42,169 nucleotides of DNA from Brevinematia bacterium (GCA_039630355.1 JBCNVF010000063.1:1-42169), one strand, 5' to 3'. Positions 1,789-41,925 are shown, counted from the stretch's first letter. The notes: generated by a model from the letters alone, not told the origin. Made by a program: numbers and translations.

Positions 1789-1997
1789 CAATAAATCCAA
1801 AATCTTAACTAAGATGTAGTTTTCCTTTTCATTATCCTCGCAGTCCCTGTCGGGACTGGGTGAATACTTTTCTTAATAAATAAAAGGCTTAGTGCAAAGT
1901 GAAATTTGTGATTGATGAATGCTATCTAGAAACAGAGAGAGTGAGTAAACAAAAAGTTAAATCTTATCTATCACCTAACGGAAATTGGAATTTATTG
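1789..1997 (+). repeat. MITE-like intergenic repeat, copy A (full length, 209 bp)
   Basis: This is the best full copy. It starts CAATAAATCCAAAATC and ends ATTGGAATTTATTG, so the ends are inverted repeats. A hairpin CAGTCCC-tgtc-GGGACTG sits near 1841-1858. The right half (GTGCAAAGTGAAATTTGTGA and onward) recurs in copies B and C. The 8-mer TTGATATA flanks it on both sides (1780-1787 and 1999-2006), one base outside each inverted end, which may be a target-site duplication. There is no open frame inside. Confidence 0.8.
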
Positions 1998-2015
1998 TTT
2001 GATATATCTTCCTAG

Positions 2016-2045
2016 ATGACTTGGTAAAACTAAGTTGTTTATACT
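2016..2045 (+). promoter_or_regulatory. Candidate promoter of uvrC, leaderless
   Basis: ATGACT (2016-2021), 18 bp, TATACT (2040-2045). The -10 box ends exactly 7 bases before the GTG start of uvrC and no Shine-Dalgarno sequence is visible, so transcription would start at or beside the start codon. The -35 match is only moderate. Confidence 0.4.
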
Positions 2046-2052
2046 TTAAATC

Positions 2053-3660
2053 GTGGTTAACAAGGAATTTCTAAAACAAATACCAGAAACTACTGGTGTA
2101 TATGTAATGTATAGTGAGACCGGAGAAGTGTTATATATTGGAAAATCGGTAAACCTAAAAAACCGCATAACCTCTTACTTCACTTCCAAAAACCATTCAA
2201 GGAGAATTCAAAACCTAGTTAACAAAGTTGCAAAGATTGACTATATAGTTGTAAACACCGAGTCTGAAGCACTAATACTTGAAGCAAACCTTATAAAAAG
2301 ACATAAACCAAGATACAATGTTTTAATGAAGGACAGTAAGTTTTTCCCCTTTGTCAAGTTATCAAAGGATGAGTTTCCTTACATAAACGCTACACGCAAA
2401 TACGAACCCAGCCATGAATTTGAATACTTCGGGCCATTTACAGATAGCACCTTGCCTCATAAACTAGTGGATGTCATACAGAGAGTCTTCAAGATAAGAA
2501 CTTGTAGAAAAATGCCTAAAAAAGCCTGCCTAAACTATTACATAGATCGCTGTTCTGCTCCTTGCGAGAAAAAAATCTCACCAATAGAATACATAAACAA
2601 TGTTGAAAAAACCAAAAAGGTGTTGAAAGGTGAGATAGACGAAGTCATAGCGATTCTAGAAAAAGAAATGAAAGAAAGTGCAAAAGATCTTAACTTTGAA
2701 AAAGCATCCTTTCTAAGGGATAGCATAAACGCACTAAAGGAAATTGAGACACAAAAACAGTTTGTTTTTTCGGCTGATGAATTTACAACCGCTGATTATA
2801 TTTCCTTCTCTGAGACCGAAGATCTCATAAACTTCTACATAGCCCACATAATAGGAGGAAAGTTCCTAGGGAAAGAAAGTATAACCTTAGAGAAGAAGGA
2901 AGAAGAGAATCCTTTAGAGAAGTTCTTATCCTCAATATACTTGTTAAGTAGTGAGGATCTCAAAATCAGTAGGATCTTTGCAGAGGTTGAGATGTTACAT
3001 GGAATTAGAAGCTTTTTTGACAAGATTAAAGACAGTATCAGCTATCCTATTGATATTCTAGCTCCTCAAGAGGAGAAAGACAGTAAAATTTTGGAAATAT
3101 GCAGAAAGAATTCAGAGATCACCTTAAACGAACACTTGGCTAGGATTGACATGGAGAACAAAGAATTAGAAGAGCTATGTAACATACTAGGTATTGAAAG
3201 CATCTCGGTAATAGATGGCTTTGACGTTGCAAACTATGGTGATGAAATATCAGTAGGTTCCAGCGTTAGATTCATAGATGGAGTTGCTTCAAAGAAATAC
3301 TATAGGGTATTCAAGATAAAGACTGTTGAAGGGCAAAATGATTTTGGGATGATAGAAGAGATCGTATACAGAAGATATAGTAGGGAAAAGGAAGATGGGC
3401 AACTACCAGAGCTTATACTCGTTGATGGTGGGAAAGGGCAATTAAATTCTGCTACAAGATCTCTTAAGAAGTTAGAATTAAACATCCCCGTCATTGCTCT
3501 TGCAAAGCAAGAGGAGAAAATAATACTTCCTAATGGCGAGGAGTTAAAGCTCCCAAGAAGCTCCTACGCCCTAAGGTTGCTACAAAGAATCAGAGACGAG
3601 GCTCACAGGTTTGGTAATACCTTCATAAGAAACATCAAGTCAAAGAGAATGAGTAGGTAA
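2053..3660 (+). CDS. uvrC: UvrC excinuclease subunit lacking the C-terminal HhH domain
   Basis: UvrC makes both incisions in UvrABC nucleotide excision repair. Visible in order: the GIY-YIG nuclease domain (TTGVYVMYSETGEVLYIGKS, residues 13-32); a four-cysteine cluster at 151, 159, 167 and 171, as in UvrC proteins that bind an iron-sulfur cluster; a UVR motif around 195-230 that contacts UvrB; and the RNase-H-like endonuclease domain with ILVDGGKGQL and RDEAHRFG. The protein has 535 residues against about 600 usually. It stops right after SKRM, where the helix-hairpin-helix tail normally begins. Start is GTG; no upstream in-frame alternative is convincing. Confidence 0.93.
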   Translation: MVNKEFLKQIPETTGVYVMYSETGEVLYIGKSVNLKNRITSYFTSKNHSRRIQNLVNKVAKIDYIVVNTESEALILEANLIKRHKPRYNVLMKDSKFFPFVKLSKDEFPYINATRKYEPSHEFEYFGPFTDSTLPHKLVDVIQRVFKIRTCRKMPKKACLNYYIDRCSAPCEKKISPIEYINNVEKTKKVLKGEIDEVIAILEKEMKESAKDLNFEKASFLRDSINALKEIETQKQFVFSADEFTTADYISFSETEDLINFYIAHIIGGKFLGKESITLEKKEEENPLEKFLSSIYLLSSEDLKISRIFAEVEMLHGIRSFFDKIKDSISYPIDILAPQEEKDSKILEICRKNSEITLNEHLARIDMENKELEELCNILGIESISVIDGFDVANYGDEISVGSSVRFIDGVASKKYYRVFKIKTVEGQNDFGMIEEIVYRRYSREKEDGQLPELILVDGGKGQLNSATRSLKKLELNIPVIALAKQEEKIILPNGEELKLPRSSYALRLLQRIRDEAHRFGNTFIRNIKSKRMSR

Positions 3661-3726
3661 GGATTATTATTCTTAAGAACTTTAGTAGATTTCCGAAAGT
3701 TAATAGTGCTGTGAGGGATAAACGTT

Positions 3727-5082
3727 ATGATGAGGTCACTTTATTCGGGTGTATCTGGTCTAATTAACCATCAGGTCAGGATGGACGTTTTAGGTAACAA
3801 CATTTCCAATGTCAATACTTATGGGTTTAAGAGAGAAAGAGTTACATTTCAGGACATTATCTCTCAGATGATGGAAGCATCTGCTAAACCTACTGATGAG
3901 CGAGGGGGTATTAACTCCAAGCAGGTAGGATTAGGAATGACAGTTGCAAGCATTGATAAGATTATGACGCAGGGTAGTATACAAACAACAGGAATTAATA
4001 CCGATCTTGCTATTGCTGGAGAAGGGTTCTTTGTCCTGAAAAAGGGTGAGCAATTGTTTTACTCAAGAGCTGGTAATTTCTATATTGATAAAGATGGTAC
4101 ACTAGTCAACTCAAGTGGTTTTAAAGTACAAGGGTGGAAAGCACAGAAGCTTGAGACTGGTGAAATAATAATAAACCCATCTGGACAGATAGAAGATTTA
4201 GTTATACCCAGAGGAGCCAAAAGCCCCGCAGCAGCTACTACCATAGTCAAATACAGATCAAATCTTGACAGTAGAACACCCATCTTAACCCCAGAATCAA
4301 GCTTGCTTGACAGAGAGAAATATACCCATAAGACAAGTGTTGACATATTTGATTCCTACGGAAACAGGTATAGAATGTTCGTTGACTTTGTTAGAAGCGA
4401 CCTTAACACTTGGGTTGCTACGGTAAATGTGGAAAACGCTAGCGGTGTTGTTGTTAGTGTAGGTGAAGAGAAAGTTGACAATAACAACCAATTTACCGTA
4501 CTCTTTGATAATAAAGGAACTCTAAGAAGTGTATCCGACAACAGTATAAATCCTACGGTTCTGGATGCTGGAACCCTAATGGCCAATGTAAGTTTCACTT
4601 TACCTGATGGAACAAGGCAGACTGTTAAGATAGAGCTTGGAGTTGCAGGTAGTATAGAAAACAGTATCACTCAATTCTCTTCACCCTCAACTGCATCAGT
4701 TTACGACCAAGATGGACATGCTATGGGATACCTTGAAAGCTTTAAGATTGACAGTTCTGGGACAATAATAGGTGTTTTTACAAACGGTCTACAAGAGCCT
4801 CTTGGGCAAATAGCTTTAGCTGGCTTTACAAACCCTCAAGGATTAGAAAAAGTTGGAGAGAACCTTTATATTGAGACTATGAACTCAGGACTAGCGGATA
4901 TCAGTCCTGCTGAGCTAAAAGGTAAAGGGAAAATATATTCTGGTGCATTAGAAATGTCAAATGTTGACTTATCTGATGCCTTCGTTGATATGATCGTTAC
5001 TCAAAGAGGCTTTCAAGCAAACTCAAGAACAATAACAACTACTGACCAGATGTTACAAGAAATACTGAATCTCAAGAGATAG
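3727..5082 (+). CDS. flgE: Flagellar hook protein FlgE
   Basis: FlgE builds the hook that joins the motor to the periplasmic filament. The N-terminus (SLYSGVSGLINHQVRMDVLG, NNISNVNTYGFKRE) and C-terminus (SNVDLSDAFVDMIVTQRGFQ, then ANSRTITTTDQMLQEIL) are the paired helical ends shared by hook and rod proteins. The middle is the variable hook domain. Length of 451 is normal. A GAGGG ribosome-binding site at 3713-3717 serves the ATG at 3727; a second ATG follows at once. I find no cysteine anywhere in the protein, which matters because studied spirochaete hooks are cross-linked through a cysteine. No other hook genes are adjacent. Confidence 0.93.
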   Translation: MMRSLYSGVSGLINHQVRMDVLGNNISNVNTYGFKRERVTFQDIISQMMEASAKPTDERGGINSKQVGLGMTVASIDKIMTQGSIQTTGINTDLAIAGEGFFVLKKGEQLFYSRAGNFYIDKDGTLVNSSGFKVQGWKAQKLETGEIIINPSGQIEDLVIPRGAKSPAAATTIVKYRSNLDSRTPILTPESSLLDREKYTHKTSVDIFDSYGNRYRMFVDFVRSDLNTWVATVNVENASGVVVSVGEEKVDNNNQFTVLFDNKGTLRSVSDNSINPTVLDAGTLMANVSFTLPDGTRQTVKIELGVAGSIENSITQFSSPSTASVYDQDGHAMGYLESFKIDSSGTIIGVFTNGLQEPLGQIALAGFTNPQGLEKVGENLYIETMNSGLADISPAELKGKGKIYSGALEMSNVDLSDAFVDMIVTQRGFQANSRTITTTDQMLQEILNLKR

Positions 5083-5103
5083 GTATCGCACCGCCTACTT
5101 ATT

Positions 5104-5129
5104 AGGGGGGACATAATCCAGTCCCTCCT
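5104..5129. terminator. Bidirectional hairpin between flgE and the HD-GYP gene
   Basis: AGGGGGGAC (5104-5112) pairs with GTCCCTCCT (5121-5129): nine base pairs with one G-U and an 8-base loop. It lies between two convergent genes and abuts the stop codon of the minus-strand gene. Neither side has a long T run, so it may act as a 3' end stabiliser as much as an intrinsic terminator. Confidence 0.6.
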
Positions 5130-5130
5130 A

Positions 5131-6285
5131 TCACATTAGCAGGATTTTCAGCCTGTCAACTTCTTCCATCTCAGTAATCACCTTTACAATGTATCGGTGC
5201 GGATCTAGCTGTAAATTCAGCTTTATCTTACTACTAACCCTCCCCAGCGAATTCTCTATTATCAAAACGCTTGGTTTCATTGAATACTCAGAATCTTTCT
5301 GGAGTATTACTCCCTTCTCTCCAGTATTCAACAATACAAAGGCTCCAGGAATATAAGGAGATGGTAGACCGTAAAGCTTTGACAGCTCAATTATAAACTT
5401 CTGTGCCAGAAGAGGCTCAAAGTATATTCCGGACTTCTTCATTATAAAGTCTAACGCTTGAGGTATAGTCATCCCACCCTTATACGGCCTTTCTGATGTT
5501 AAAGCATCAAAAACATCCGCTAAGCTTACAATCTGTGGATACCTACCAATCCTGTCAAACTTTATCCCCAATGGATACCCATTACCGTCGTATCTTTCAT
5601 GATGGAATAAGACGATCTTCTTAGCATAAGTGCTTACAGTGGGTTCATCTTTTACCGCAAAATACCCTATTATTGGATGCTTTTTTATAACAGTAAACTC
5701 TTCTTCCGTAAGCTCTTCAGGCTTATAGAGAATAGAGGTAGGTATTTTGATCTTACCCACATCATGTAGTAAAGCACCCGTTCCTATCTCCTTTATGACA
5801 AAGTCACTAGCCCCCAAAAACTTTGAGAAAAACATTGACAGTATCGTGACATTTATAGAGTGAATATAGGTGTATTCATCGTAGTTCTTTACCACCGAAA
5901 GGTTTATCACCGCTTTCCCCAACTTCTGTATCATCTCTCTAAAAAGCTGTTCTATAATCTCTTTAACTTGCTGAATTTCTATTTTCTTATCTTCTTTTAC
6001 TTGCTGTAAAACATTATCTATCACCTCCTTAGCACTTTCCTTAACCTCCTCCGAAAACATAGGAGGACGAAACTCTGAGAGATCTTTCTTTATCTCCCTG
6101 GTGTAATACAACTCTTTTATTCCTTGAGCTTTTATTTGATTTATGAAACTCTGGGTTATTGGCCTTCTAGCAGGCCAGAGTAAAACTCCTTCTTTAGAAA
6201 AAAGATCTCCCGCCAACATCATTCCCGGCTTTAGAAAATCTACCACTATATCGTGTTTAACTCTATCTTTCTCACCTTCTTGCAT
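5131..6285 (-). CDS. HD-GYP domain protein, probable cyclic-di-GMP phosphodiesterase
   Basis: The C-terminal part shows the full HD-GYP signature: ALLHDVGKIKIP, then FHHERYDGNGYPLG, then YPQIVSLADVFDALTSERPY. This family degrades c-di-GMP and often controls motility. The N-terminal 60-70 residues (HDIVVDFLKPGMMLAGDLF) resemble the regulatory segment common in such proteins, followed by a charged helical linker. No receiver domain or membrane segment is seen. I start at ATG 6285 (MQEGEKDR). The frame extends to a GTG at 6327, but that adds a hydrophobic MRVILIIYLKLEF without a ribosome-binding site. Its position between flgE and flaA suggests a role in motility, which is inference. Confidence 0.88.
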   Translation of the reverse strand: MQEGEKDRVKHDIVVDFLKPGMMLAGDLFSKEGVLLWPARRPITQSFINQIKAQGIKELYYTREIKKDLSEFRPPMFSEEVKESAKEVIDNVLQQVKEDKKIEIQQVKEIIEQLFREMIQKLGKAVINLSVVKNYDEYTYIHSINVTILSMFFSKFLGASDFVIKEIGTGALLHDVGKIKIPTSILYKPEELTEEEFTVIKKHPIIGYFAVKDEPTVSTYAKKIVLFHHERYDGNGYPLGIKFDRIGRYPQIVSLADVFDALTSERPYKGGMTIPQALDFIMKKSGIYFEPLLAQKFIIELSKLYGLPSPYIPGAFVLLNTGEKGVILQKDSEYSMKPSVLIIENSLGRVSSKIKLNLQLDPHRYIVKVITEMEEVDRLKILLM

Positions 6286-6327
6286 AAACTCTAACTTTAA
6301 ATAAATTATTAATATAACTCTCATCAC

Positions 6328-6645
6328 ATTTCAAGAGAAGCCTACCCAGAGCAACAAATTCCAAATTACTTTCCTGTTTCCAACTTTCTCAAGAATTTTC
6401 TTGTTAACCCTTCCCATAGTAATTCCACGATTATGCACCTTACTAGCTATATGTATTAGAATCTTTTCTTCTTTCTTGGACCCTTTATACTCAGAAGTTG
6501 CTGGTTCCTAGATTTTTTAAATATTTGCCAAGGTGTTCTACAATGTTTTCATTCTCACCCACAACCCTAAACCAAATTACTGAGCATCATACAAAGAATT
6601 TTAGACTCTACTGCACCTAGAGTTTGGTGAATAAGACAGTTGCCG
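6328..6645. other. Gene-less stretch upstream of the flaA promoter
   Basis: No credible frame on either strand. Near 6341-6380 there are short pieces resembling the dispersed repeat family (GAGAAGCCTACCCAG on one strand and CAACAAATTCCAA on the other), possibly the scrambled remains of a copy. The rest shows nothing I can name. Confidence 0.35.
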
Positions 6646-6674
6646 TTGAAAGAGAAAACCATTACATTTATCAT
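6646..6674 (+). promoter_or_regulatory. Sigma-70-type promoter of flaA
   Basis: TTGAAA (6646-6651), 17 bp, TATCAT (6669-6674). Spacing is ideal and each box has one mismatch. Transcription would start near 6681, just ahead of the hairpin at 6685. This points to housekeeping rather than sigma-28 control of flaA. Confidence 0.6.
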
Positions 6675-6684
6675 TCTTATGGAA

Positions 6685-6722
6685 TCGGAAAGGGTTTTAA
6701 ACTAAGGATAACACCCTTCCGA
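6685..6722 (+). promoter_or_regulatory. 5' hairpin in the flaA leader
   Basis: TCGGAAAGGGT (6685-6695) pairs with ACCCTTCCGA (6713-6722), with one bulged A and a 17-base loop. It would sit at the extreme 5' end of the predicted mRNA, upstream of a strong AAGGAGG site (6738-6744). 5' stem-loops of this kind stabilise abundant mRNAs; an operator or attenuator role is also possible. Confidence 0.5.
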
Positions 6723-6749
6723 TAATCCTATAAGCAAAAGGAGGATGTT

Positions 6750-7778
6750 ATGAGAAGAGTAGCGATTTCCGTTTTGCTCTTAATAGTAACAGTTGGAGTA
6801 GGGTTTGCAGAGATTGAAAGAACTCTCATTGACTTCGGTTCATACGAACAAAAAATTGGCCAGTATCTGGCAAGAGAGAAGCAGAATCTCCAGAACCTAG
6901 TTGATAGCTATAAGAAAGAAGGACTAGACTTATACAGAGAATGGTTCTACTCCCAGGAAAACGCCCAAAAGCTTCTGGACATTTGGTTTGATCCAGCAAC
7001 ATGGAAAATAAATAACTGGAAAGTTGAATTGGTCTCATCTGCAAGGTTTGTTCCAAACATTGTCAATTCATACGTGCTGAAGGTCCAAAGTGCGAAATGG
7101 GGAGATGTAATGGGTGTGAGAATAAAATTTCCAGCAACACCATTCCTCTCAAACGCTAAAATAATTCCTCCATTCAGATTTACTCCTTACTACCTTGACG
7201 GTACACCAGTAGATCCTGAAGGAGACTTCTCAAAAAAGCAGTTTACCGAGGAAGAGAAAGTAAAAAGCGGAATACTGATGAATGTTCTCCAGATCAAGAG
7301 AGTTTCCGTATGGGTTGCAGGTAGAAACTATAAACACCTTATGTCTGTTATCTTTAGAAATGAAGACGGTGCAGAAGAAGAATACTTTATGGGAGCATTA
7401 TATTTCCAAGGATGGAGAAGACTAGCCTGGGAAAACCCAAATTATATTGAACAAGTCAATCAAAGAATTTTACAAAGACTTCCTTTATACCCAAGACCAT
7501 TACCTTACAAAGAACTGGCTTACTTCAAAATCTACAAACCCCAGGAGGAACAAGGTGGCGACTTCGTTGTATACTTCAAGGACGTCGCTGTTTCATTTGA
7601 CAGAGCTATAGTTTATGAAGAACTTGACATTGACGATGAGAAATATTGGCAAATACTCTCAAAAGAAAAGATTGAGTATACCAAAAGAATGCTAAGAAAA
7701 ATAATAGACCAAGTTGAACTTGTTGAATTGGAGAAGAAGAGAAAAGTAGCATCTCAAGAACCAACTACCAGACAATAA
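6750..7778 (+). CDS. flaA: FlaA, periplasmic flagellar filament outer-layer (sheath) protein
   Basis: FlaA coats the FlaB core of spirochaete periplasmic flagella and is exported by Sec. The first 20 residues are a signal peptide (RRVAISVLLLIVTVGVGFA, cut near FAE). The mature protein matches the family: NNWKVELVSSARFVPNI, then GVRIKFPATPFLSNAKIIPP, then LQIKRVSVWVAGRNYKHLMS. Length of 342 is usual. Start is fixed by AAGGAGG five bases before the ATG. It has its own promoter, a 5' hairpin and a downstream terminator, so it is a single-gene unit, as expected for a major structural protein. The C-terminal third is charged and helical. This gene is the strongest marker that the host is a spirochaete. 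Confidence 0.88.
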   Translation: MRRVAISVLLLIVTVGVGFAEIERTLIDFGSYEQKIGQYLAREKQNLQNLVDSYKKEGLDLYREWFYSQENAQKLLDIWFDPATWKINNWKVELVSSARFVPNIVNSYVLKVQSAKWGDVMGVRIKFPATPFLSNAKIIPPFRFTPYYLDGTPVDPEGDFSKKQFTEEEKVKSGILMNVLQIKRVSVWVAGRNYKHLMSVIFRNEDGAEEEYFMGALYFQGWRRLAWENPNYIEQVNQRILQRLPLYPRPLPYKELAYFKIYKPQEEQGGDFVVYFKDVAVSFDRAIVYEELDIDDEKYWQILSKEKIEYTKRMLRKIIDQVELVELEKKRKVASQEPTTRQ

Positions 7779-7786
7779 TTCTTCCT

Positions 7787-7830
7787 AAAGGGTAGCCTTG
7801 CTACACACCAACAGCTAGCTACCCTCTTTC
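7787..7830 (+). terminator. Terminator of flaA
   Basis: GGGTAGC (7790-7796) pairs with GCTACCC (7818-7824), preceded by AAA and followed by TCTTTCT. The loop is long (21 bases) and the T run is interrupted, so strength is uncertain. Confidence 0.55.
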
Positions 7831-7859
7831 TCATCTTCTATAACAGCTTCTCACCTTCC

Positions 7860-8879
7860 TTAAAATTCCTCAATCTCCTCAATAAAGTCTGATACTTCCG
7901 AAGTTGTAAAATCATCACTAGAAAATGAAGTAGATAAAGCCACCCTATTCCAGTGTTTCAGGTATATTGTATCAAATGGTTTCCTTTCGTTCACTATCTC
8001 AGGATACACCACAAAACATTCATCGTTTTCAAAACAAATTCTTTTTTCATACTCCGAAATAAGCTTCTCATGGATTTTCTCACCAGGCCTAGGTTTAGAC
8101 TCAATAATTCTCGCCATAGGATATAATATCTTAACAAGATCCAATACCCTTGACGCTTGCATTTTAGGAATAAATATCTCTCCACCTTCCATCAAGGACA
8201 AACACCTAACTACAAACCTAGATGCTTCTTCTATAGTTATCCAGAACCTCGTCATATTTTTATCAGTCACATAAACAGGTTCCATATTTCGCTTTTTCTC
8301 TTTCACTACTTCAAAAATACTCCCCCTGCTGTTTATAACATTACCAAGCCTAACTACTGAAAATTTGGTTCTAAAGTTATTCCTTTCATCTATATTTCCA
8401 GAGATAAATATCCTCTCCGCACAGAGCTTTGTTGCTCCATAGGTGCTAGATGGCTCAACTGCCTTATCAGTGCTCACCATCATAGCCCTCTCTATCCCAC
8501 TTTCAATACTTGCATCAACTAAATTCTTTGTCCCTTCTATATTAGTCTTCACTAGCTCATAGGGATAGTATTCTCCAAATTCTACCCTCTTTAAAGCAGC
8601 TGAATGAATCACCAAATCTACACCTGAGGTATACCTCTTAATAGCTTCAACATCTCTTATATCCCCTAATTTAGGAACTACCTTCCTGTAATCCTTAAGA
8701 TCTTCAACCAACTTTGACAGCTTATACTCATCTCTACTTAACACTCTTATCTCCTTGACAAGCTCATAAAAGTTACTAAGTATGTATTTTAGGATACCAC
8801 CACCTATAGTGCCAGTAGCACCTGTGATGAGTATTACTTTATTTTCAAATAACAACCTCTCAATGAGCATCTTTACCAA
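7860..8879 (-). CDS. PseB/CapD-like nucleotide-sugar dehydratase (extended SDR)
   Basis: Extended short-chain dehydrogenase of the UDP-GlcNAc 4,6-dehydratase group, which starts synthesis of pseudaminic acid and related surface sugars. The nucleotide-binding loop is VILITGATGTIGGG. SAALKRVEFGEYYPYELVKT and NIEGTKNLVDAS are group-typical. The active-site region STDKAVEPSSTYGATK has the TDKA and YxxxK pattern of PseB and FlaA1 enzymes. The length of 339 lacks the membrane domain of long CapD proteins. The start overlaps the DUF3467 gene by 20 bp, so translation is probably coupled. Flagellin glycosylation is a plausible use in a spirochaete but is inference; other polysaccharide pathways are equally possible. 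Confidence 0.8.
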   Translation of the reverse strand: MVKMLIERLLFENKVILITGATGTIGGGILKYILSNFYELVKEIRVLSRDEYKLSKLVEDLKDYRKVVPKLGDIRDVEAIKRYTSGVDLVIHSAALKRVEFGEYYPYELVKTNIEGTKNLVDASIESGIERAMMVSTDKAVEPSSTYGATKLCAERIFISGNIDERNNFRTKFSVVRLGNVINSRGSIFEVVKEKKRNMEPVYVTDKNMTRFWITIEEASRFVVRCLSLMEGGEIFIPKMQASRVLDLVKILYPMARIIESKPRPGEKIHEKLISEYEKRICFENDECFVVYPEIVNERKPFDTIYLKHWNRVALSTSFSSDDFTTSEVSDFIEEIEEF

Positions 8880-9132
8880 ACTCCGGAAGAATTATAACAC
8901 CAAATTTCTTCTCATATTCAACTATATTGTTAGACAACAGACCAGCAAGCCTCTTTGCATTCCTCGGATTAAGGACTATCCTAGACACTACTCTAGGGTT
9001 TCTGTTACCAGGCATAATCCTAGCAAAGTCAAGAATAAACTCATCCTCATTGAACGAAACTATTATCAAATTTGAATAATGAGTAACTTCTAAATTCTCT
9101 GGGACTTCCAGTTGTAGCTCCTTCTTCTCCAT
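8860..9132 (-). CDS. DUF3467 family small protein
   Basis: 90 residues matching DUF3467: YSNLIIVSFNEDEFILDFAR, then MPGNRNPRVVSRIVLNP, then NAKRLAGLLSNNIVEYEKKF. The function of this conserved bacterial family is not established. The start codon overlaps the M16 stop (TAATG) and the stop lies inside the next gene, so it is the middle of a tightly coupled three-gene operon. Confidence 0.8.
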   Translation of the reverse strand: MEKKELQLEVPENLEVTHYSNLIIVSFNEDEFILDFARIMPGNRNPRVVSRIVLNPRNAKRLAGLLSNNIVEYEKKFGVIILPEFGKDAH

Positions 9133-10457: not shown

Positions 10458-10468
10458 AACCTGCACTA

Positions 10469-12016: not shown

Positions 12017-12025
12017 ACTTACCTC

Positions 12026-13293: not shown

Positions 13294-13304
13294 AATATGA
13301 CCTC

Positions 13305-19129: not shown

Positions 19130-19157
19130 ACTATAAGGAAATCTAACAACTTATCAA
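19130..19157 (-). promoter_or_regulatory. Candidate rpsT promoter at the edge of repeat B
   Basis: On the minus strand, TTGATA (19157-19152), 16 bp, TATAGT (19135-19130). The TTG of the -35 box is the outer end of repeat copy B (…ACTTATTG). The leader would be about 25 bases with a GGAGGG ribosome site. Confidence 0.5.
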
Positions 19158-19376
19158 TAAGTTCCACAACAAAGTCCAATTCATAGTAGATAAGGTTTTA
19201 AACTTTTTGTCTGCTTACTTCCCCAATTCTAGACAGTATTCGTCAATCACAAAACTCCGCTTCACACTGAGCCCCTTAGATGCCTACTTAAGAAGAGTAT
19301 TCACCCAGTCAACAGTGATGCAAGAAGAAGAATAAAAGAAAAGCATTAACTAATCGTTAAATCTTGGAATTTATTA
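19155..19376 (-). repeat. MITE-like repeat, copy B (minus orientation)
   Basis: Read on the minus strand it starts AATAAATTCCAAGATTTAAC and continues GACTGGGTGAATACTCTTCT, TTGTGATTGACGAATACTGT and GACAAAAAGTTTAAAACCTT, parallel to copy A. It ends in two tandem end-like motifs, ATTGGACTTTGTTG and TGGAACTTATTG; the outer one is used here as the boundary. The central hairpin is decayed. Confidence 0.7.
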
Positions 19377-19574
19377 GAAAATGTCCAACATAATCTGTAA
19401 TTTACGATTGGGTATAGTTTCTTCTTTCCTTTGCAACTCCTGAAAATCGGATAAATACTTTTAAAAACAAAGAAGCTTTGTGCAAAGTGAATTTTATAAG
19501 CAACGAGCACCTTAGAGGCAAAAGGAATAGACAAGCAGAAAGCTTAGATTCTCAGCTACTCACCTAACGGAAAC
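19377..19574 (+). repeat. MITE-like repeat, copy C (plus orientation, right end lost)
   Basis: Collinear with copy A: GATAAATACTTTTAAAAACA, GAAGCTTTGTGCAAAGTGAA, GACAAGCAGAAAG, and CACCTAACGGAAA identical to copy A. The left end is diverged and abuts copy B head to head. The right inverted end is replaced by fragment E. Confidence 0.6.
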
Positions 19575-19625
19575 AAAGACTGCGAGAAAAACAAAAGAAA
19601 AAATCATACCTATTGGAATTTATTG
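19575..19625 (-). repeat. Left-end fragment of the repeat, copy E (minus orientation)
   Basis: On the minus strand this reads CAATAAATTCCAATAGGTAT, then GATTTTTTC and CTCGCAGTCTTTG: the left third of the element, breaking at the hairpin. Its outer end TTATTG is followed by ACA, making TTGACA, but no good -10 box stands 17 bp away. Confidence 0.6.
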
Positions 19626-19687
19626 ACACCTTCTTGGTTGATTTGAAAAGAAGAATACTTGACCTTAATAATAGTAATAAACAAAAT

Positions 19688-22307: not shown

Positions 22308-22445
22308 AGCTTAATTTCAACAGTGTCACTTTACACCAAGCTTCAAGATTTTATTGAGAGGACATCACCTCCGGTCCCGAAAGAGACTGTGGCAAGGGAA
22401 GTAAAGGGAAAAACATACCTAGTTGTTAAATCTTGGAATTTATTG
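22302..22445 (-). repeat. MITE-like repeat, copy F (internally deleted, 144 bp)
   Basis: Minus orientation. The left end CAATAAATTCCAAGATTTAA is at 22445, and the other end reads CAATAAAGC on the plus strand at 22302. The hairpin region CAGTCTC-tttc-GGGACCG and GTGTAAAGTG are kept; about 65 bp of the right half are missing. AAAATT occurs just outside both ends (22296-22301 and 22449-22454). It fills the whole mtnA-peptidase gap. Confidence 0.75.
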
Positions 22446-30342: not shown

Positions 30343-30404
30343 ACTCTATCATTATCGTCAACCTAAGAGCCAAAACGCAAAAAAACAAAACTAAGTTTCC
30401 TAGG

Positions 30405-30498
30405 TGTTCGTTGAGAGAAGTGTCTACCCAGCCCCGACAGAGACTGTGAAAAGAATAAAAGAAAAACCATACCTATTGTTAAATTTTAGACTTCATTG
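30405..30498 (-). repeat. MITE-like repeat, copy I (left half only)
   Basis: Minus orientation. The left end is diverged (CAATGAAGTCTAAAATTTAA at 30498), followed by CAATAGGTATGGTTTTTCTT and the hairpin CAGTCTC-tgtc-GGGGCTG, where G-U pairs keep the stem, then GGGTAGACACTTCTCTCAAC. The right half is missing. It sits between divergent xer and GNAT genes. Confidence 0.65.
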
Positions 30499-30567
30499 GA
30501 GAATGAGTCAAAAAATTGTTTTTTCGCTAACATTCTGAATAAAATATCACCGTTAGTGAGGTAACCT

Positions 30568-33324: not shown

Positions 33325-33842
33325 ATATTCCCTCCTAACCCTAGTTTTGACTTTATCTCATTTATTGTTTTTTTCAAAATTCTCTTAATTGTCCTAGAAC
33401 TACAACTTTCCATTTCGGCAATTTCTTCTATTTTGTATCCTTCCAACCTAAGAAGGAGAATTTCTTTCTCCCTATCTGGTAGAGAATCCACAATGCACAT
33501 CATCTCTTCCTTCATGTTATCCCCATTAGACACACATCCACTGTTATAGGCTATTTCCTCAATAACTTTTCTCTCCCTTTTTTCTCTTCTTTTTCTGTCT
33601 CTAATTATATTCAAGGCTGTTTTAAAAATAAAGCTTTTGAAGCGACCCTTAGGTGAGTAAGTATTGATATTCTCTATAAACCTTACGAATGTCTCCTGAA
33701 CTACATCAATAGACATATCCACATCCCTCGTATACTTATACACAAAGCTAATAAGTGACTTGCTATATTTGTTATATAACTCAGCGAACGCATTCTCGTC
33801 TCCGCAGACTATTCGGTATATCAACTCTGCTTCGTTTTCCAT
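33321..33842 (-). CDS. ECF-type RNA polymerase sigma factor
   Basis: 173 residues with sigma region 2 (ENAFAELYNKYSKSLISFVY, then DVVQETFVRFIENI) and region 4 (LPDREKEILLLRLEGYKIEE, then SSRTIKRILKKTINEIKSKL), and no regions 1 or 3, as in extracytoplasmic-function sigma factors. It is the first gene of an operon with its anti-sigma factor and an outer-membrane protein. Upstream, TGAAAC and TAACAT at 17-bp spacing (minus strand, near 33850-33878) could be an autoregulated promoter, but I cannot tell. The regulon is unknown. Confidence 0.9.
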   Translation of the reverse strand: MENEAELIYRIVCGDENAFAELYNKYSKSLISFVYKYTRDVDMSIDVVQETFVRFIENINTYSPKGRFKSFIFKTALNIIRDRKRREKRERKVIEEIAYNSGCVSNGDNMKEEMMCIVDSLPDREKEILLLRLEGYKIEEIAEMESCSSRTIKRILKKTINEIKSKLGLGGNI

Positions 33843-33974
33843 AGTTGATATGTTAAAAGAAGTCTAACTACCGTTTCATTCATCCAAATTCTTCCAATCC
33901 ATATAATTTAACGGATTTAACCTAAAAATCGTGACAAAAAAAATAAATCTGCCTCCATAATAAAAAAATTAGGT

Positions 33975-34167
33975 CAATAAAGGCCAGAACTTACAACTAG
34001 GGGTAGTTTTTTCATTTTTTCGCAGTCTTTCTTGGGACTGGGTAAGTATCCTCTCAACAAAGGTTAGAAGCTAGATTTTGCTAACTTGAATTGCACTTTA
34101 GATGTATAAGCTAAGTAAAGCGTATTCTTCCTTTTATTTCTTATCGGTTTCCAGTGGAAGTTTATTG
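33975..34167 (+). repeat. MITE-like repeat, copy D (193 bp)
   Basis: Starts CAATAAAGGCCAGAACTTAC, ACAACTAGGGGTAG and ends CCAGTGGAAGTTTATTG. The hairpin CAGTCTT-tct-TGGGACTG is kept by a G-U pair, and GACTGGGTAAGTATCCTCTC follows as in the other copies. The right half is strongly diverged. The right end forms part of the predicted nadB -35 box. Confidence 0.7.
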
Positions 34168-34193
34168 AAATTCCAGTAGACCATTTGTTAAAT
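34165..34193 (+). promoter_or_regulatory. Candidate nadB promoter overlapping the end of repeat D
   Basis: TTGAAA (34165-34170), 17 bp, TTAAAT (34188-34193). The TTG is the last three bases of repeat D. The -10 box matches consensus at only four positions. Confidence 0.4.
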
Positions 34194-34218
34194 TTCTTAC
34201 GAGAATGCGAACAAGGGT

Positions 34219-35787: not shown

Positions 35788-35801
35788 CCGAAAAATAAAG
35801 A

Positions 35802-38456
35802 TCAACTCACCTTAGACTTAAGCTCTTCCAAAATCCTCAACGCTTCTACAGGCGTAATAGAATCAATATCTACCCTCCTAATATACTCAATCACCTCCTT
35901 TATCTTCTCGGGCATATCAAATACAAAAAGTGAAGGTTGAAGAATTCCAATATCCTCCTTCTTAATCTTCTCCCTAACGAACTTCTGGGATTTCTCAAGT
36001 TCAAGAAGAATCTCATTTGCCTTATCTACTATCTTCTCAGGAATTCCAGCAATCTTAGCAACAAATATTCCGTAACTTTTGTTAGCCACCCCCTTTACAA
36101 CCTTCTTTAAAAAGACAACTTCGTCCTTATACTCTCTAACAGCCATTGTGAAGTTTTTTATTCCCCTTTTCTCATCATCGCCAAGTTTTGTAAGCTCATG
36201 ATAGTGCGTAGCAAAAAGTGTTTTCCCATACTTATGAGGGTTATTAGCAATATAATCAATGACAGCCCAAGCTATTGACACACCATCAAAGGTTGAGGTT
36301 CCTCTACCTACTTCGTCCATAACTATAAGACTTCTGGGAGTAGCATTCCTAAGAATGTTTGCTACTTCTATCATCTCAACTAAAAATGTACTCTGACCCA
36401 GTGCAAGATAATCACTTGCTCCAATCCTCGTGAATATTTTGTCAATTATCCCTATCCTACACTCCTTCGCAGGCACGAAAGAACCAACATGAGCCATAAT
36501 AGCGATAAGAGCATTTTGTCTAAGATAAGTAGATTTTCCAGCCATATTTGGACCTGTAAGAATTATTATCCTGCTATCTCTGTTATTCATGTTAGTATCA
36601 TTTGGAACAAACTCACCCCTAGAAAGGTATCTCTCTACAACGGGATGTCTACCCATCCTAATAACAAATTCATCGCTATCTACAACCTCCGGTCTTGAAT
36701 AATCATTCTCAACTGCTAAAAGCCCCAAACCAGAAAAAACATCAATCTCCCCAACAAAGTCCGAAACCTTCTTTAGCTCCCCATAATACTTTGAAAGTTC
36801 AGAAAGAACAAAGTTAAACAATTCTCTCTCAAGAACTACTACTCTCTCGGAGGCATACATAAACTTATACTCTAGTTCCTTAAGTTCGGTGGTCACGAAT
36901 CTTTCCGCGTTTACCAGTGTCTGTTTTCTTTCATAGTCACTGGGAACCAAATGGAGATTAGCCTTAGAGACCTCTATGTAGAACCCTATGACCTTATTAT
37001 AGCCAACCTTCAGTGACTGGATACCCGTTCTTGCCCTTTCCCTTTCCTGAATCCTCTCAATATACAGCTCAGAGCTACTCTTTATAGTTCTAAGTTCGTC
37101 AAGTTCTTTACTCACTCCTTCTCTTATGACTCCTCCTTCATCAAAACTATTTGGAGGATTGTCATTTATCGTCTTATCCACTAGAGTGTAGATCTCAGAG
37201 ATACTTTCGGGAATCTCAATGCCAAACTTCTCCATATAATCTGCTATGAGCCCAATAATTTCGGAAAGCGCTCCAATGGAATTCTTTAGGTTAACTAACT
37301 CCTTCGGTGTTGCTCTCTTGAAAAAAATTCTATTACTTATCCTCTCAATATCCGCAATCTCGGAAAGTTTCTTCCTAAGTTCCTTGGTTCTAGAGTAATT
37401 GTTGAAAAAGTATTCAACTTTATCTAATCTAGTCCTAATGACATTAAGCTCAACTGAAGGATTAAGAAGCATCTTCCTAATGAGTCTTCCTCCCATCGGT
37501 GTTGTTGAGTTATCCAGAACCTCAAGAAGAGTATATTTCTTAGTGCCATCCAGTAAATTTGAAACTATCTCCAGATTTTTTATTGAAAATTCGTCTATCT
37601 CCATATACTTTCGGTTATCAATAAACGATATGCTTGATACACCTATATCCTCGGTAAGTTGAGTCTCCTCAAAGTATCTAAGTATCGCACCTATTACTGT
37701 TTTCTCATCTTCACCAAACGGAAAATCCATCTGTGCCTTACCACTGTGCTTATTGAATATCCTCACGCAGTCGGTCCTATCAAAAAACCACTCAGGGTAA
37801 GAGGTTATAGTAATCCATTTGAACTCAGAAAGCACAGAAGATATCAAAGAATTTGACAAAAGAGTGTTGCTAATAAGAACTTCCGAAGGCTTATATTTCG
37901 TCAACAACTCCCTAAGTTCCTTCTTAAGGAGGTATATTTCCTCCTCATCATGGATCTTATCAATATCTTCAGAAAGTTTTATTCTTTCAATGAGTATCTC
38001 ACCGGTGGATATATCTCCAAACGCAGAGAACAAATTCTCCCCTATGCTTTGAATACTCATAAGGAAGTTGTTGGACCTACTCTCAAGAACATCAACATCT
38101 GTTATCGTTCCCGGAGTTATTATTTGCACAACTCCCCTTCTCACTATTCCTTTAGCCAGAGAAGCATCTTCAAGTTGTTCACAGATAGCCACCTTATACC
38201 CGCTTCTAACAAGCTTATATATGTAATTGCTAGCTGAGTGTGCAGGAAACCCACACATGGGTAACTCATTTCTAGAGGTAAGAACTATATTCAGAACCCT
38301 AGAAGCTTCGTAGGCATCATCCCCAAAAAGCTCATAAAAGTCACCAAGCCTAAACAGTAGAAGCTTATCCTTGTGCTTCTCCTTTATTGAGAAGTATTGA
38401 CGAATCATCGGAGTTGAGACTTTTACCTCCTCAAAGAGTCTCTCTTCCTTCTGCAT
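35802..38456 (-). CDS. mutS: DNA mismatch repair protein MutS
   Basis: Recognises mismatches and starts repair. The N-terminus has the mismatch-binding motif in LLLFRLGDFYELFGDDA, with the conserved Phe-x-Glu. The ATPase end has Walker A (TGPNMAGKST, near residue 635), Walker B (LIVMDEVGRGTSTFDG), and TLFATHYHELTKL. 884 residues is full MutS1 length with clamp and lever regions. ATG 38456 has no ribosome-binding site, but a perfect TATAAT lies 7 bases upstream, so the transcript may be leaderless. It converges with nadB. mutL is not nearby. Confidence 0.95.
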   Translation of the reverse strand: MQKEERLFEEVKVSTPMIRQYFSIKEKHKDKLLLFRLGDFYELFGDDAYEASRVLNIVLTSRNELPMCGFPAHSASNYIYKLVRSGYKVAICEQLEDASLAKGIVRRGVVQIITPGTITDVDVLESRSNNFLMSIQSIGENLFSAFGDISTGEILIERIKLSEDIDKIHDEEEIYLLKKELRELLTKYKPSEVLISNTLLSNSLISSVLSEFKWITITSYPEWFFDRTDCVRIFNKHSGKAQMDFPFGEDEKTVIGAILRYFEETQLTEDIGVSSISFIDNRKYMEIDEFSIKNLEIVSNLLDGTKKYTLLEVLDNSTTPMGGRLIRKMLLNPSVELNVIRTRLDKVEYFFNNYSRTKELRKKLSEIADIERISNRIFFKRATPKELVNLKNSIGALSEIIGLIADYMEKFGIEIPESISEIYTLVDKTINDNPPNSFDEGGVIREGVSKELDELRTIKSSSELYIERIQERERARTGIQSLKVGYNKVIGFYIEVSKANLHLVPSDYERKQTLVNAERFVTTELKELEYKFMYASERVVVLERELFNFVLSELSKYYGELKKVSDFVGEIDVFSGLGLLAVENDYSRPEVVDSDEFVIRMGRHPVVERYLSRGEFVPNDTNMNNRDSRIIILTGPNMAGKSTYLRQNALIAIMAHVGSFVPAKECRIGIIDKIFTRIGASDYLALGQSTFLVEMIEVANILRNATPRSLIVMDEVGRGTSTFDGVSIAWAVIDYIANNPHKYGKTLFATHYHELTKLGDDEKRGIKNFTMAVREYKDEVVFLKKVVKGVANKSYGIFVAKIAGIPEKIVDKANEILLELEKSQKFVREKIKKEDIGILQPSLFVFDMPEKIKEVIEYIRRVDIDSITPVEALRILEELKSKVS

Positions 38457-38463
38457 AAGATAA

Positions 38464-38469
38464 ATTATA
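38464..38469 (-). promoter_or_regulatory. -10 box of mutS, probably leaderless
   Basis: TATAAT on the minus strand (38469-38464) with seven bases to the mutS ATG and no Shine-Dalgarno sequence. No clear -35 box. Confidence 0.4.
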
Positions 38470-38513
38470 AAAATGCATAAGCCATGTTTTTTAGTTTAGA
38501 GAGAAAAACCTAA

Positions 38514-38601
38514 CAAATTCCAAAACCTAGCATTAGGCGTGGCTTCCTTTTGTCTTTCCTTTAGAATCTTGCCAGTTATCAACCGAAACCGGAGTTTATT
38601 G
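38514..38601 (+). repeat. MITE-like repeat, copy G (88 bp, deletion derivative)
   Basis: Starts CAAATTCCAAAACCTAGC and ends CCGAAACCGGAGTTTATTG, matching both ends of the family with the centre and hairpin deleted. It lies between mutS and the STAS gene. Confidence 0.5.
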
Positions 38602-38619
38602 TATTCTGAAGTCACTAAA

Positions 38620-38649
38620 TTGAAAAAGTAGGTTTAGGTGCTTTACAAT
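38620..38649 (+). promoter_or_regulatory. Promoter of the STAS / PAP2 operon
   Basis: TTGAAA (38620-38625), 18 bp, TACAAT (38644-38649). Each box has one mismatch. The start would be near 38656 and the leader carries AGAGGT before the ATG. Confidence 0.6.
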
Positions 38650-38669
38650 CTAAAAAAAGAGGTCATGTT

Positions 38670-39011
38670 ATGTTTAAAGTTGAGAAAATAGGAGATGTAG
38701 TTGTAGTAAGGTTAGGAGGCAGAATAGATGTCCAATCAGCACTTGAACTAGAAAGACAGATAAATGAAATCTTAGGAATGAATGTAAACAAAATAGTCTT
38801 TGACTTCACAGATGTCCAACATCTTTCAAGTAGTGGAATAAGGGTACTGATCTCCTCTCTAAGGAGAACCACTGCCAACAAAGGTGGAATAAAACTTTCT
38901 AACGTTAGCCAATCTGTTAGAAAAATACTTAAGTTAGTTGAACTAGAAAACTTGTTCAATTTCTACAACTCTGTTGATGATGCTTTAAAAGCATTTGAAG
39001 AAAAAGTGTAA
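38670..39011 (+). CDS. STAS-domain anti-sigma factor antagonist
   Basis: 113 residues forming a single STAS domain, like SpoIIAA and RsbV: VVVVRLGGRIDVQSALELER, then KIVFDFTDVQHLSSSGIRVL. The serine phosphorylated by a partner kinase would be Ser54 or Ser55 in LSSSGI. Such proteins switch partner anti-sigma kinases, but no RsbW-like kinase or phosphatase is in the window, so the partner is unknown. The stop overlaps the start of the PAP2 gene (TAATG), which indicates translational coupling. Confidence 0.9.
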   Translation: MFKVEKIGDVVVVRLGGRIDVQSALELERQINEILGMNVNKIVFDFTDVQHLSSSGIRVLISSLRRTTANKGGIKLSNVSQSVRKILKLVELENLFNFYNSVDDALKAFEEKV

Positions 39012-39634
39012 TGCTTATTGAGAGATTGAAACTATTCTTTTCAAAGAAATTCTCTCTCGTTTCTAGATTTGATTTTTGGTTCATTTCCAAGGTTATAAAA
39101 ATAAGATGTAGCTTTCTAACAATTTTCTTCAAGATCATTTCTACCTTATGTGACTGGTGGGTTCTTTTAATTATAACCATTGTTATCCTCCTTATAAACT
39201 CCGACCTAGGAGTGTTACTAGCTATATCGTTGATAATTCAAATTCTTTTACAGAAAACTGCAAAAAACATCGCAACCAGAAAAAGACCCTATATAAGATA
39301 CAGAGAGGAAGTAAAGAGACTAATAGTTCCTCCAGATAGATACTCCTTTCCCTCAGGTCACACTGCAGGAGCCTTTGTTCTATTTTTCTCGGTAAACACC
39401 TTTTCTATTGAAATTTCAATTCCTATTTTAGTTTTCGCCATTCTTGTAGGATTTTCCAGAATCTACCTAGGAGTCCACTATCTCACAGATGTAATAACCG
39501 GAATTCTTTTAGGATTCATCTCAGTTGAGATTACAAAACTCTTTTACCAAGACATAGCTAAGCTGATTAAGCAGATAATCCCTTACCTACCTCATTTACA
39601 GCTCTCCCTAGAAGAGTATCATGTGTTTGTATAG
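39011..39634 (+). CDS. PAP2-family membrane phosphatase
   Basis: Integral membrane phosphatase with all three signature motifs: KNIATRKRP (motif 1), SFPSGHTAGAF (motif 2) and SRIYLGVHYLTDV (motif 3), between hydrophobic segments (LLIITIVILLI, ISIPILVFAILVGF). Likely substrates are undecaprenyl diphosphate or a phospholipid phosphate at the outer face of the inner membrane. 207 residues is normal. The start is coupled to the STAS gene. Its last 68 bases overlap the end of the convergent flgF gene; both frames look real in the overlap. Confidence 0.88.
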   Translation: MLIERLKLFFSKKFSLVSRFDFWFISKVIKIRCSFLTIFFKIISTLCDWWVLLIITIVILLINSDLGVLLAISLIIQILLQKTAKNIATRKRPYIRYREEVKRLIVPPDRYSFPSGHTAGAFVLFFSVNTFSIEISIPILVFAILVGFSRIYLGVHYLTDVITGILLGFISVEITKLFYQDIAKLIKQIIPYLPHLQLSLEEYHVFV

Positions 39635-40427
39635 TCTTAGAGTTTGCTTCATATGCTCTTTCTGCAGAAATCATTTTTACCATTTCCACTACCGGATTGA
39701 CATTTGATGTTTCTAAAAAGCCCTGATGAACTTTCGGTCTTTTATCTTCTTCAATACTCTTCATCTCACCAGAGAGCTCAGTAGTGCTGTAATATGAATG
39801 CCCTTCCTTCTTAAGATACCTTGGAAAATCAACAGTAACAATCATAATTCTATCAACTACTTCCTGATCCTTGATATCACTTCGGTCTGTCGCAACAAAA
39901 TCATCAAGAATCGCCGGATCGTGTGACATATCTATGAGTATATTACCCTGCTTGTCAACCTTGAAGTTACCAATTTTCACCCTTATATACCCATTCTCAC
40001 CAAGCACCTTAAAACCTTCTTTCGTAACCAGATAGTTATCATTACTTATTTTGAAAGCTCCATTTCTAGTAAGCTTTAATCCTTCCGGTGTCTCAACTAC
40101 AAAAAATCCTTCTCCCTCAAGCGCCAAATCAAAATGGTTCTCCGTCTGCCTCAAAGAACCTTGCTCAAATATAGTCTGTATCTCGTTTATTTCAACTCCT
40201 GTGCCGAATTTCCCCACTACTGGAGCTTTATCATACGAACCAAGTGGAAATGTTACAACACCGTTGTCATTCACCCTTCTTGCTAACATCTCCGGAAATG
40301 CCTTGAATAAAGAAATCTCTCTTTTGTATGAAGTAGTATTTATATTCGCAAGGTTGTTCGCAATAGTGTTTATGTTATCAAGTTGAGCTATCATTCCTGA
40401 AGCTCCAGTATATACCCCTCTTACCAT
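39567..40427 (-). CDS. flgF: Flagellar basal-body rod protein FlgF/FlhO type
   Basis: Rod component of the periplasmic flagellar motor. The N-terminus (VRGVYTGASGMIAQLDNINT, IANNLANINTTSYKRE) and C-terminus (QGFLETSNVNPVVEMVKMIS, AERAYEANSKTIQTHD) are the paired ends of the rod/hook family. The middle, LGSYDKAPVVGKFGTGVEIN and then EQGSLRQTENHFDLALEGEG, matches the protein called FlhO or FlgF in spirochaetes, where it usually stands next to a second rod gene. That partner is not here. The start has AGGGGG just upstream. A strict FlgF versus FlgG call is uncertain. Confidence 0.85.
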   Translation of the reverse strand: MVRGVYTGASGMIAQLDNINTIANNLANINTTSYKREISLFKAFPEMLARRVNDNGVVTFPLGSYDKAPVVGKFGTGVEINEIQTIFEQGSLRQTENHFDLALEGEGFFVVETPEGLKLTRNGAFKISNDNYLVTKEGFKVLGENGYIRVKIGNFKVDKQGNILIDMSHDPAILDDFVATDRSDIKDQEVVDRIMIVTVDFPRYLKKEGHSYYSTTELSGEMKSIEEDKRPKVHQGFLETSNVNPVVEMVKMISAERAYEANSKTIQTHDTLLGRAVNEVGKGLSA

Positions 40428-40730
40428 TTTAACCCCCTATTTTAATTTTCGTAGCAGTAAATCTTTTCTTCAGATTTTACAAACTACTTCCCAAAACCTA
40501 AACCTCGGTCTCATTCCCCGGGTATGAATTCCTTTTGTTGTATTGATAAACGAAAGAGTAACTACAACAATAAGACACTAACGAGTAGATAGCAAAACAA
40601 ATCCAGAGTATAAATCAACCCCCAAAGCATATCTCAACACTAAGACATACTCTCTAACTACCAAGGTTCTCAGAAAAATATGGTAAAGTCCAAATAACGC
40701 CTGAAGATTCTGTAGTTAGAATAGCAGATT
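40428..40730. other. Gene-less stretch between flgF and the DUF4912 gene
   Basis: No credible frame. The part near 40495-40555 (CTCGGTCTC, CCGGGTATGAATTCCTTTTG) vaguely follows the centre of the repeat family and could be a decayed copy. GTTGTA (40536) and TACAAC (40562) form a short inverted repeat. It must hold the flgF promoter, but I cannot identify it. Confidence 0.3.
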
Positions 40731-41801
40731 TTATTTTTTTATATCCTCGTATCTCTCAGTTTTCTTTTCTACTATTGGTATTACTGATATAGTATGGGTT
40801 CCATCAGATGAGGTTCCAACTATTGGGATGTTTCTTATACCATCAGGCAGATACATCTTAAGGTAAAACTTACCATCTTTATCAAGCTTAATTTTCTCAC
40901 CGAATATGGTTACTGTTGCATCTGGTTCAGTCTGACCGTATACTGTAAGTTCGGTATGCACCTCAAGCCAGAAACCTTTTTTCTGGGGTGGTCTTTCAGG
41001 TATAGCAAATGAACTCATAAACTCTGCTGATGATATATTAAACGGCATTTCTAAAGCTCTGATCATCATCCCAGAACCTACAACCTCGTGAAGCATTCCT
41101 AGACCTGAAGCCCTCAAGATGTCATCAGTAACTATCATCCACTCTTCGTCATAATAAGGAGAGACACTACCTCTAGGAACCCTTATTATATTGGACCTTG
41201 CTATAACTATAAAATTCCCATCAATCATTACACCTAAGTCTGCACAATAGCTTTTATCATATTCAGGAACGTTGATATACCAATTGTTCGTATAGTCGTT
41301 TACATAAACATCAAAGAAAGAATTTGCGTTAAGACCATTAAATATGCTTTCAACTCCTGTAATATCATAAACTCTGACTACCAACTGCTTGCCATGCTCT
41401 CCTCTAGGAAGAAGTCCCAGCTCTTCTCTTTTTTGGTGAGAAATTTCCCAATACACATGTGTCCAGTATGGATCTTGAACCAGAAATACTATTTTTGTCT
41501 CTCCATACTCATGAGGAAGCTCCCTTGAAGGTTCAACAATATATACGATTCCTGTTTCACGCTCATAAACTTGTGGCGATGAAACAACTGTCTCAATAGA
41601 ACGCTCTATTTGCTCTAGTATTTTCTTCGTCTTGGATCTGCAAGAAGACCTCTCCTTACCCTTAGCTGAAACCTTTGCTTTCTCTCCCTTCTCTAAAAGG
41701 CTAACTATATCAGATTTCTTCATTTTAGAATTGACACTAAACCCTCTCTCCTTTGCAACCTTTAGTAGCTCTTCCTTAGTCATTGAAGAAAAATCTTTCA
41801 T
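40731..41801 (-). CDS. DUF4912 protein with an N-terminal SAP/Rho-N-like domain
   Basis: The first 38 residues (SSMTKEELLKVAKERGFSVN, SKMKKSDIVSLL) form a helix-extended-loop-helix domain like the nucleic-acid-binding start of Rho or SAP domains. After a basic linker comes DUF4912: VEPSRELPHEYGETKIVFLV, then QDPYWTHVYWEIS, and FDVYVNDYTNNWYINVPE. The C-terminal third has a beta-rich segment (HTELTVYGQTEPDATVTIFG). Function is unknown; the family often occurs beside glycan-metabolism genes, which is not seen here. The ATG follows GGAGGT. It is transcribed alone as far as the window shows. Confidence 0.82.
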   Translation of the reverse strand: MKDFSSMTKEELLKVAKERGFSVNSKMKKSDIVSLLEKGEKAKVSAKGKERSSCRSKTKKILEQIERSIETVVSSPQVYERETGIVYIVEPSRELPHEYGETKIVFLVQDPYWTHVYWEISHQKREELGLLPRGEHGKQLVVRVYDITGVESIFNGLNANSFFDVYVNDYTNNWYINVPEYDKSYCADLGVMIDGNFIVIARSNIIRVPRGSVSPYYDEEWMIVTDDILRASGLGMLHEVVGSGMMIRALEMPFNISSAEFMSSFAIPERPPQKKGFWLEVHTELTVYGQTEPDATVTIFGEKIKLDKDGKFYLKMYLPDGIRNIPIVGTSSDGTHTISVIPIVEKKTERYEDIKK

Positions 41802-41864
41802 ACCAAACCTCCATTTCGTATCAGTATATTAACAATTATAAAGAATACTTTGCGAATTTTCAAC

Positions 41865-41880
41865 AAAAACCCCGAAGGGG
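41865..41880 (-). terminator. Intrinsic terminator for a minus-strand gene to the right
   Basis: On the minus strand CCCC-TTC-GGGG is followed by TTTTT. It would end a transcript arriving from beyond 41880, supporting a minus-strand gene near the right edge. Confidence 0.5.
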
Positions 41881-41925
41881 CAATAAATTCCAAAATTTGA
41901 GAGTTATGTGGGTATGGTTAATACT
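41881..41925 (+). repeat. Left-end fragment of the MITE-like repeat, copy H
   Basis: CAATAAATTCCAAAATTTGA is a near-perfect left inverted end, followed by GGGTATGGTTAATAC, which resembles the next segment of the family. The similarity then fades. Confidence 0.5.

Follow-up and report, generated by a model that had tools for sequence, protein, structure and literature searches.

Bacterial miniature inverted-repeat elements (MITEs), such as Correia/NEMIS, RUP, and ERIC-like repeats, are gene-less sequences of about 100–250 bp with inverted ends, which lie between genes and occur in many copies; to our knowledge, none of these families has been described as lying at a set distance from promoters. 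Precise targeting of promoters has been described for the ISLre2/TnGBS elements and part of the ISKra4 group, which insert ahead of sigmaA promoters, 15–17 bp upstream of the -35 box (Guerillot et al., 2014, PMC3942029). Such elements encode Mutator-like transposases, produce 8–9-bp target site duplications (TSDs), and have 18–39-bp inverted repeats ending in C; contact with the RNA polymerase initiation complex has been proposed for them, and elements with nearly symmetric ends were found with promoters on either side (PMC3942029). Here, we analyzed a window of 42,169 nucleotides, the complete contig C63 of a Brevinematia bacterium genome (G000; 1.75 Mb in 126 contigs), in which a first-pass annotation had pointed out gene-less repeats with inverted ends. 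In our view these are probably MITEs moved by an insertion sequence (IS) that has the same ends, with 9–10-bp TSDs and integration aimed at promoters. This promoter-phased insertion is a property beyond what the first reading had observed.

An iterative nucleotide profile, seeded with four window copies, converged on a family of 217 positions, with matches reaching E-values as low as 1e-51, and CAATAAATTCCAA, allowing up to one mismatch, occurred 150 times genome-wide against 4 occurrences of a reversed control pattern. The repeats are therefore one real family, with a consensus of 217 bp, and a median copy length of 206 bp; the sequence-only model, run over up to 150 candidate stretches, counted at least 158 copies across the 1.75 Mb. 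Hence the copies are neither restricted to the few loci first noticed nor a product of chance similarity in AT-rich DNA, being widespread and far above chance. The terminal inverted repeats are imperfect, of about 30 bp (CAATAAATTCCAA... and ...TTGGAATTTATTG), with tips reading CAATAAATTCCAATTTCCATTAGGTGAGTA and, inverted, CAATAAATTCCAAAATTTACAATTAGGTATAGT, and with C at the tip. With the same model, a sister species yielded at least 50 copies, which are more diverged, and two further species of the genus yielded none; a search of 41 genomes gave matches in no further genome. The copies are old and deeply decayed, since median identity to the consensus among the 111 copies of at least 150 bp is 80%; the best pairs of copies are 92% identical, and no protected block is left except the tips.

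Most of the window copies listed in the first-pass annotation matched this profile. A full-length copy occupies 1789–1997 (minus strand), with a TSD formed by CTTGATATAC (1779–1788) and TTTGATATAT (1998–2007), identical at 8 of 10 positions and differing by transitions. Another (19155–19376, plus strand; profile match 19167–19375) is followed by a spacer of 9 bp (19377–19385), which in the spacing analysis has target-duplication length and separates it from a composite copy (19386–19625, minus strand) in which an inverted right-end fragment (19555–19625, plus strand) takes the place of the left end; thus, an element does follow where one had been placed from 19377, but its first nine positions belong to the spacer. 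In what follows, a predicted promoter is a match of at least 9/12 to TTGAAA-16..18-TATAAT, a consensus-based call rather than a mapped start. Such a sigma70-type promoter (TTGAAA-18-AATAAT, 11/12; 19643–19672, plus strand), with its -35 box at +18 from the element end, is predicted beside the composite copy, upstream of a branched-chain amino acid permease gene (PF02653). Truncated copies were recognized by the profile at 22318–22445 (plus strand; right part, between convergent genes) and about 30390–30498 (plus strand; right half), the latter accompanied by a weak predicted promoter, TTGTTT-18-TAAAAT (30516–30545, plus strand; -35 at +18), which at 8/12 is under the threshold, and a diverged full-length copy was found at 33975–34167 (minus strand). 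The copy at 38514–38601 (minus strand) did not reach the profile threshold; inspection by eye shows that it is heavily deleted but keeps a recognizable right-type end plus the other end, and it has predicted promoters on both sides, among them TTGAAA-18-TACAAT (11/12; 38620–38649, plus strand; -35 at +19 from the element end). The stretch from 41881, taken earlier for a left end of the repeat, belongs instead to a transposase-bearing relative that shares the terminal repeat, and is its right end; this internally deleted IS relic runs to the contig end (41881–42169, minus strand). Exactly 17 bp from this relic lies a predicted consensus promoter, TTGAAA-17-TATAAT (12/12; 41835–41863, minus strand), which lies upstream of the gene at 40731–41801 and has its -35 box at +18 relative to the IS end.

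The initial impression that the repeats lie between genes and carry no open frame was borne out genome-wide, since only 2 of the 126 copies of at least 100 bp overlapped an ORF (at least 120 aa) by more than 15%, compared with 78% of random placements, and the MITE interior is without ORF. Spacers holding elements were divergent in 57 cases, tandem in 45, and convergent in 4, a distribution with few convergent spacers that promoters as the target would explain. Intergenic location and inverted ends would also suit a non-mobile structural repeat, that is, a REP/ERIC/BOX-like RNA hairpin, and individual copies fold slightly better than shuffled sequences (mean z about -1). Nevertheless, RNAalifold gave no pairs for the family, so that, with single folds only mildly better than shuffles, a conserved RNA fold was rejected; the target duplications and the arrays with 9-bp spacers, both presented below, leave such a repeat with a negligible probability, the duplications refuting it outright. 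An Rfam search of the window retrieved only one tRNA.

Flanks of the 84 full copies with both sides available were compared with shuffled pairings. Identity over 9 bp was 0.388 versus 0.269 (z = 7.3), and a match was also detected at 10 bp (z = 5.3) and 8 bp (z = 4.1), with no signal among these copies at 2–7 bp or 11–15 bp; under a strict criterion, 26 pairs were convincing TSDs, compared with 1.8 by chance. Consequently, with target duplications of 9–10 bp flanking full copies, the MITE copies have transposed. Moreover, the gaps between neighbouring elements measure 9 bp in five cases and otherwise 8, 10, and 12 bp, which is explained if a promoter received a second element at an unchanged distance, with the duplicated target left between the two. 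In one pair (L192) the spacer is identical to the outer flank (ACACCCAA), while in most other pairs it no longer resembles the flank well. Head-to-tail IS-type elements separated by exactly 9 bp, right to left end, were also seen in a related genome (L212 of G002, 1527–1537). A TSD was present in 1 of 16 MITEs with promoters on both sides (Fisher p = 0.06) and was absent from six or seven short derivatives of the IS that retain its two ends; our guess, a plausible one, is that copies recombined later and so lost the duplications. Empty sites were sought at base level in relatives, but these proved too distant for the purpose, with about 72% identity in the protein compared, and their gene order is shuffled. 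Likewise, comparison of the window with stretches of G002 and G003 indicated that gene order is poorly kept within the genus, where hundreds of dispersed repeats could be driving rearrangement.

Position-wise counts of the flanking host DNA revealed a fixed motif beside both MITE sides and beside IS ends, which, read outward, corresponds by consensus prediction to a sigma70-type promoter (TTGAAA, 16–18 bp, TATAAT). On 166 element sides there were 97 promoter matches starting at +17 to +20, with at least one match on 79 sides, against a background of 0.91 matches per position between +25 and +170. The predicted -35 box started at +18 on 48 sides and at +19 on 26, compared with 0–5 per position past +23. 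In-register promoters were recognized on at least one side of 65 of the 84 full copies (about 77%), and roughly one full copy in four lacks a recognizable one. Both element ends are used, with a promoter in register at 46/82 left and 33/84 right ends, and on both sides of 16/84 full copies; by orientation, a promoter at +18 was found on 55/158 sides facing a gene start and on 5/41 facing a stop. Furthermore, IS ends in sister genomes display the same peak (16/36 at +18). Insertion at random between genes, with selection keeping the copies that spare promoters, would leave nearly all copies intergenic, and hits within a core promoter should be harmful; however, purging predicts a minimum distance and not a peak of one or two bases, and the 8–12-bp spacers between neighbours need repeated hits at one point, so we find this account improbable.

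The fixed phase, the use of both ends, and the two-sided cases would also be expected if the elements were regulatory cassettes, whose ends bind an activator and beside which promoters evolved at a fixed distance after insertion. We consider this quite unlikely, given the deep decay that has left only the tips protected, the identical register at IS ends, which belong to a different and less diverged element, and the fact that some element-free orthologues carry the same promoter. In this regard, the predicted promoter at L187 (TTGAAT-17-TAGAAT, 26 bp before the start codon) recurs as TTGAAT-17-TAGAAT, at 30 bp, in the element-free G003 orthologue; L002 has TTGAAA-17-TAGAAT and its element-free orthologue TTGAAA-17-TAAAAT; and the element-free orthologues of L011 and L142 (compared with G002) likewise keep the promoter. 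Several other orthologue comparisons were uninformative. Where the comparison was informative, promoters thus came first, and together with the sharp register and the 8–12-bp spacing this indicates insertion aimed about 53 bp upstream of predicted transcription starts.

MITE copies differ from the consensus by 3812 transitions and 674 transversions, and their purine/pyrimidine pattern is about 97% conserved. Selection on structure was rejected as the cause, because the target duplications, which are host DNA, are equally biased (24 transitions, 4 transversions); hence the transition excess looks mutational and suggests an unusual neutral mutation spectrum in G000. A full-length MutS gene is present in the window (35802–38456) despite this bias. 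In a few IS relics near contig ends, by contrast, most differences are transversions, and four-fold sites compared with relatives were saturated and uninformative. Two contig ends, the first 387 bp of C49 (L091) and of C46 (L092), around a 126-bp mini-IS, are 94% identical with mostly transversions, and are perhaps strain variants or an assembly error.

A transposase gene with the same ends, which the first-pass annotation had supposed to exist elsewhere, was found in a search of relatives, as a 376-aa ORF in a sister species (L097, G003; with a copy in G002), and relics of it occur in this genome. After the L097 ORF comes CTATACCCAAATAACTCTCAAATTTTGGAATTTATTA, a match to the MITE right end, and the relic at 41881, read towards its end, codes for a transposase fragment and continues into sequence that C37 and C117 share with it at about 95%. 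Ends common to the MITE and the transposase-bearing element were recorded at L097, L096, L089, and window position 41881; the two share just about 18 identical terminal bases and a short inner stretch. This genome yielded only relics, with no intact transposase and no DDE_Tnp_1 gene, and the intact IS copy may have been lost from its assembly; plasmid homologues of the 376-aa transposase were not found. In addition, the sister species hold IS derivatives of about 90–330 bp with both IS ends and without TSD (L196, L202, L214, and L216 in G002; L206 in G003), which look like further non-autonomous elements. Taken together, the terminal repeats, the 9–10-bp duplications, the high copy number, the lack of an ORF, and the shared-end transposase support the original proposal that the MITE is mobilized in trans, for which the 376-aa protein is the likely agent.

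Regarding its class, the 376-aa ORF matched PF01609 (DDE_Tnp_1) with E = 4e-4 and 20.6 bits, where the curated cut-off is 23, and the IS4 model NF033592 with E = 7e-5 and 22.1 bits, where the cut-off is 115; these weak matches cover the C-terminal catalytic region, and no IS4-type match in Pfam or NCBIfam exceeded its curated cut-off. Candidate DDE motifs are IDGT, LDGL, and RWGIE (R-W-x-I-E context), of which a 34%-identical homologue from another genome of the phylum (L103) keeps IDG and RWRIE, with LDG not kept as aligned. From these profile matches, the protein is probably a DDE transposase, IS4-superfamily-like, and TSDs of about 9–10 bp fit several IS4-type families. Membership in ISAs1 was rejected, as comparison with E. 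coli YhhI, presumably a putative transposase of ISAs1 type, was not significant. A Mutator-type transposase (ISLre2/ISKra4-like) would be the natural alternative mover, given that promoter targeting, 8–9-bp TSDs, 18–39-bp repeats, and a terminal C have all been described there (PMC3942029). Yet the transposase found with these ends has its matches among IS4-type models and its own ends exhibit the same targeting, while Mutator-type models were absent from its Pfam and NCBIfam matches up to E = 10. Four genomes of the genus were searched for PF06782 and gave no match, the controls being equally silent. We therefore give a Mutator-type mover little credence.

In the preferred reading, an IS encoding the IS4-superfamily-like DDE transposase of about 376 aa would act in trans on the MITE of about 217 bp, and integration would duplicate 9–10 bp of target and place the element 17–18 bp upstream of a -35 box, at about -53, with either MITE end adjoining the promoter. 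A new element landing again at the same promoter would leave about 9 bp between elements. The transposase-DNA complex would dock against promoter-bound RNA polymerase, rather than reading DNA alone. The footprint of RNA polymerase holoenzyme ends near -55; as the edge of the element is found at about -53, docking on the polymerase is the simplest explanation, and we infer that it accounts for the register. More tentatively, and with somewhat less than an even chance in our estimation, an IS4-like, non-Mutator transposase may have independently evolved integration guided by RNA polymerase holoenzyme, the MITE marking many promoters at about -53 genome-wide.

Elements at a fixed promoter distance would provide, for an uncultured lineage, an extensive natural record of its transcription starts, and tolerance of at least 158 insertions by a compact genome is explained if genes and core promoters are spared. 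The findings suggest that promoter-guided integration arose outside Mutator-type transposases, and the MITE/IS pair offers a system for testing RNA polymerase as a transposase landmark.

In brief, this MITE resembles Correia/NEMIS, RUP, and ERIC-like repeats in being short, gene-less, intergenic, and abundant, with inverted ends, although its sequence is, as far as we know, unrelated to theirs. Like TnGBS/ISLre2 (p-MULT 3) and the ISKra4 group (p-MULT 4), it stands at a set distance from the -35 box, here 17–18 bp (starts at +18/+19), and its TSDs of 9–10 bp, repeats of about 30 bp, and tip C are likewise similar. In contrast, those systems are ISs, transposons, and ICEs whose transposases are Mutator-like, whereas here we describe a high-copy, gene-less MITE in a probable spirochaete host, whose presumed transposase matches IS4-type models and no Mutator model; the register (17–18 against 15–17 bp) and the TSD length (9–10 against 8–9 bp) differ as well. 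Compared with the IS4 superfamily (DDE_Tnp_1: IS4, IS701, ISH3, ISAs1, and relatives), which this protein of about 376 aa matches weakly at its C-terminal part, precise promoter targeting was unreported in the literature we found and is present in this IS and MITE. Such targeting had, then, been reported only for an apparently different kind of transposon, the Mutator type, and the repeats are best filed as a MITE family served by a transposase that works alike but is apparently different.
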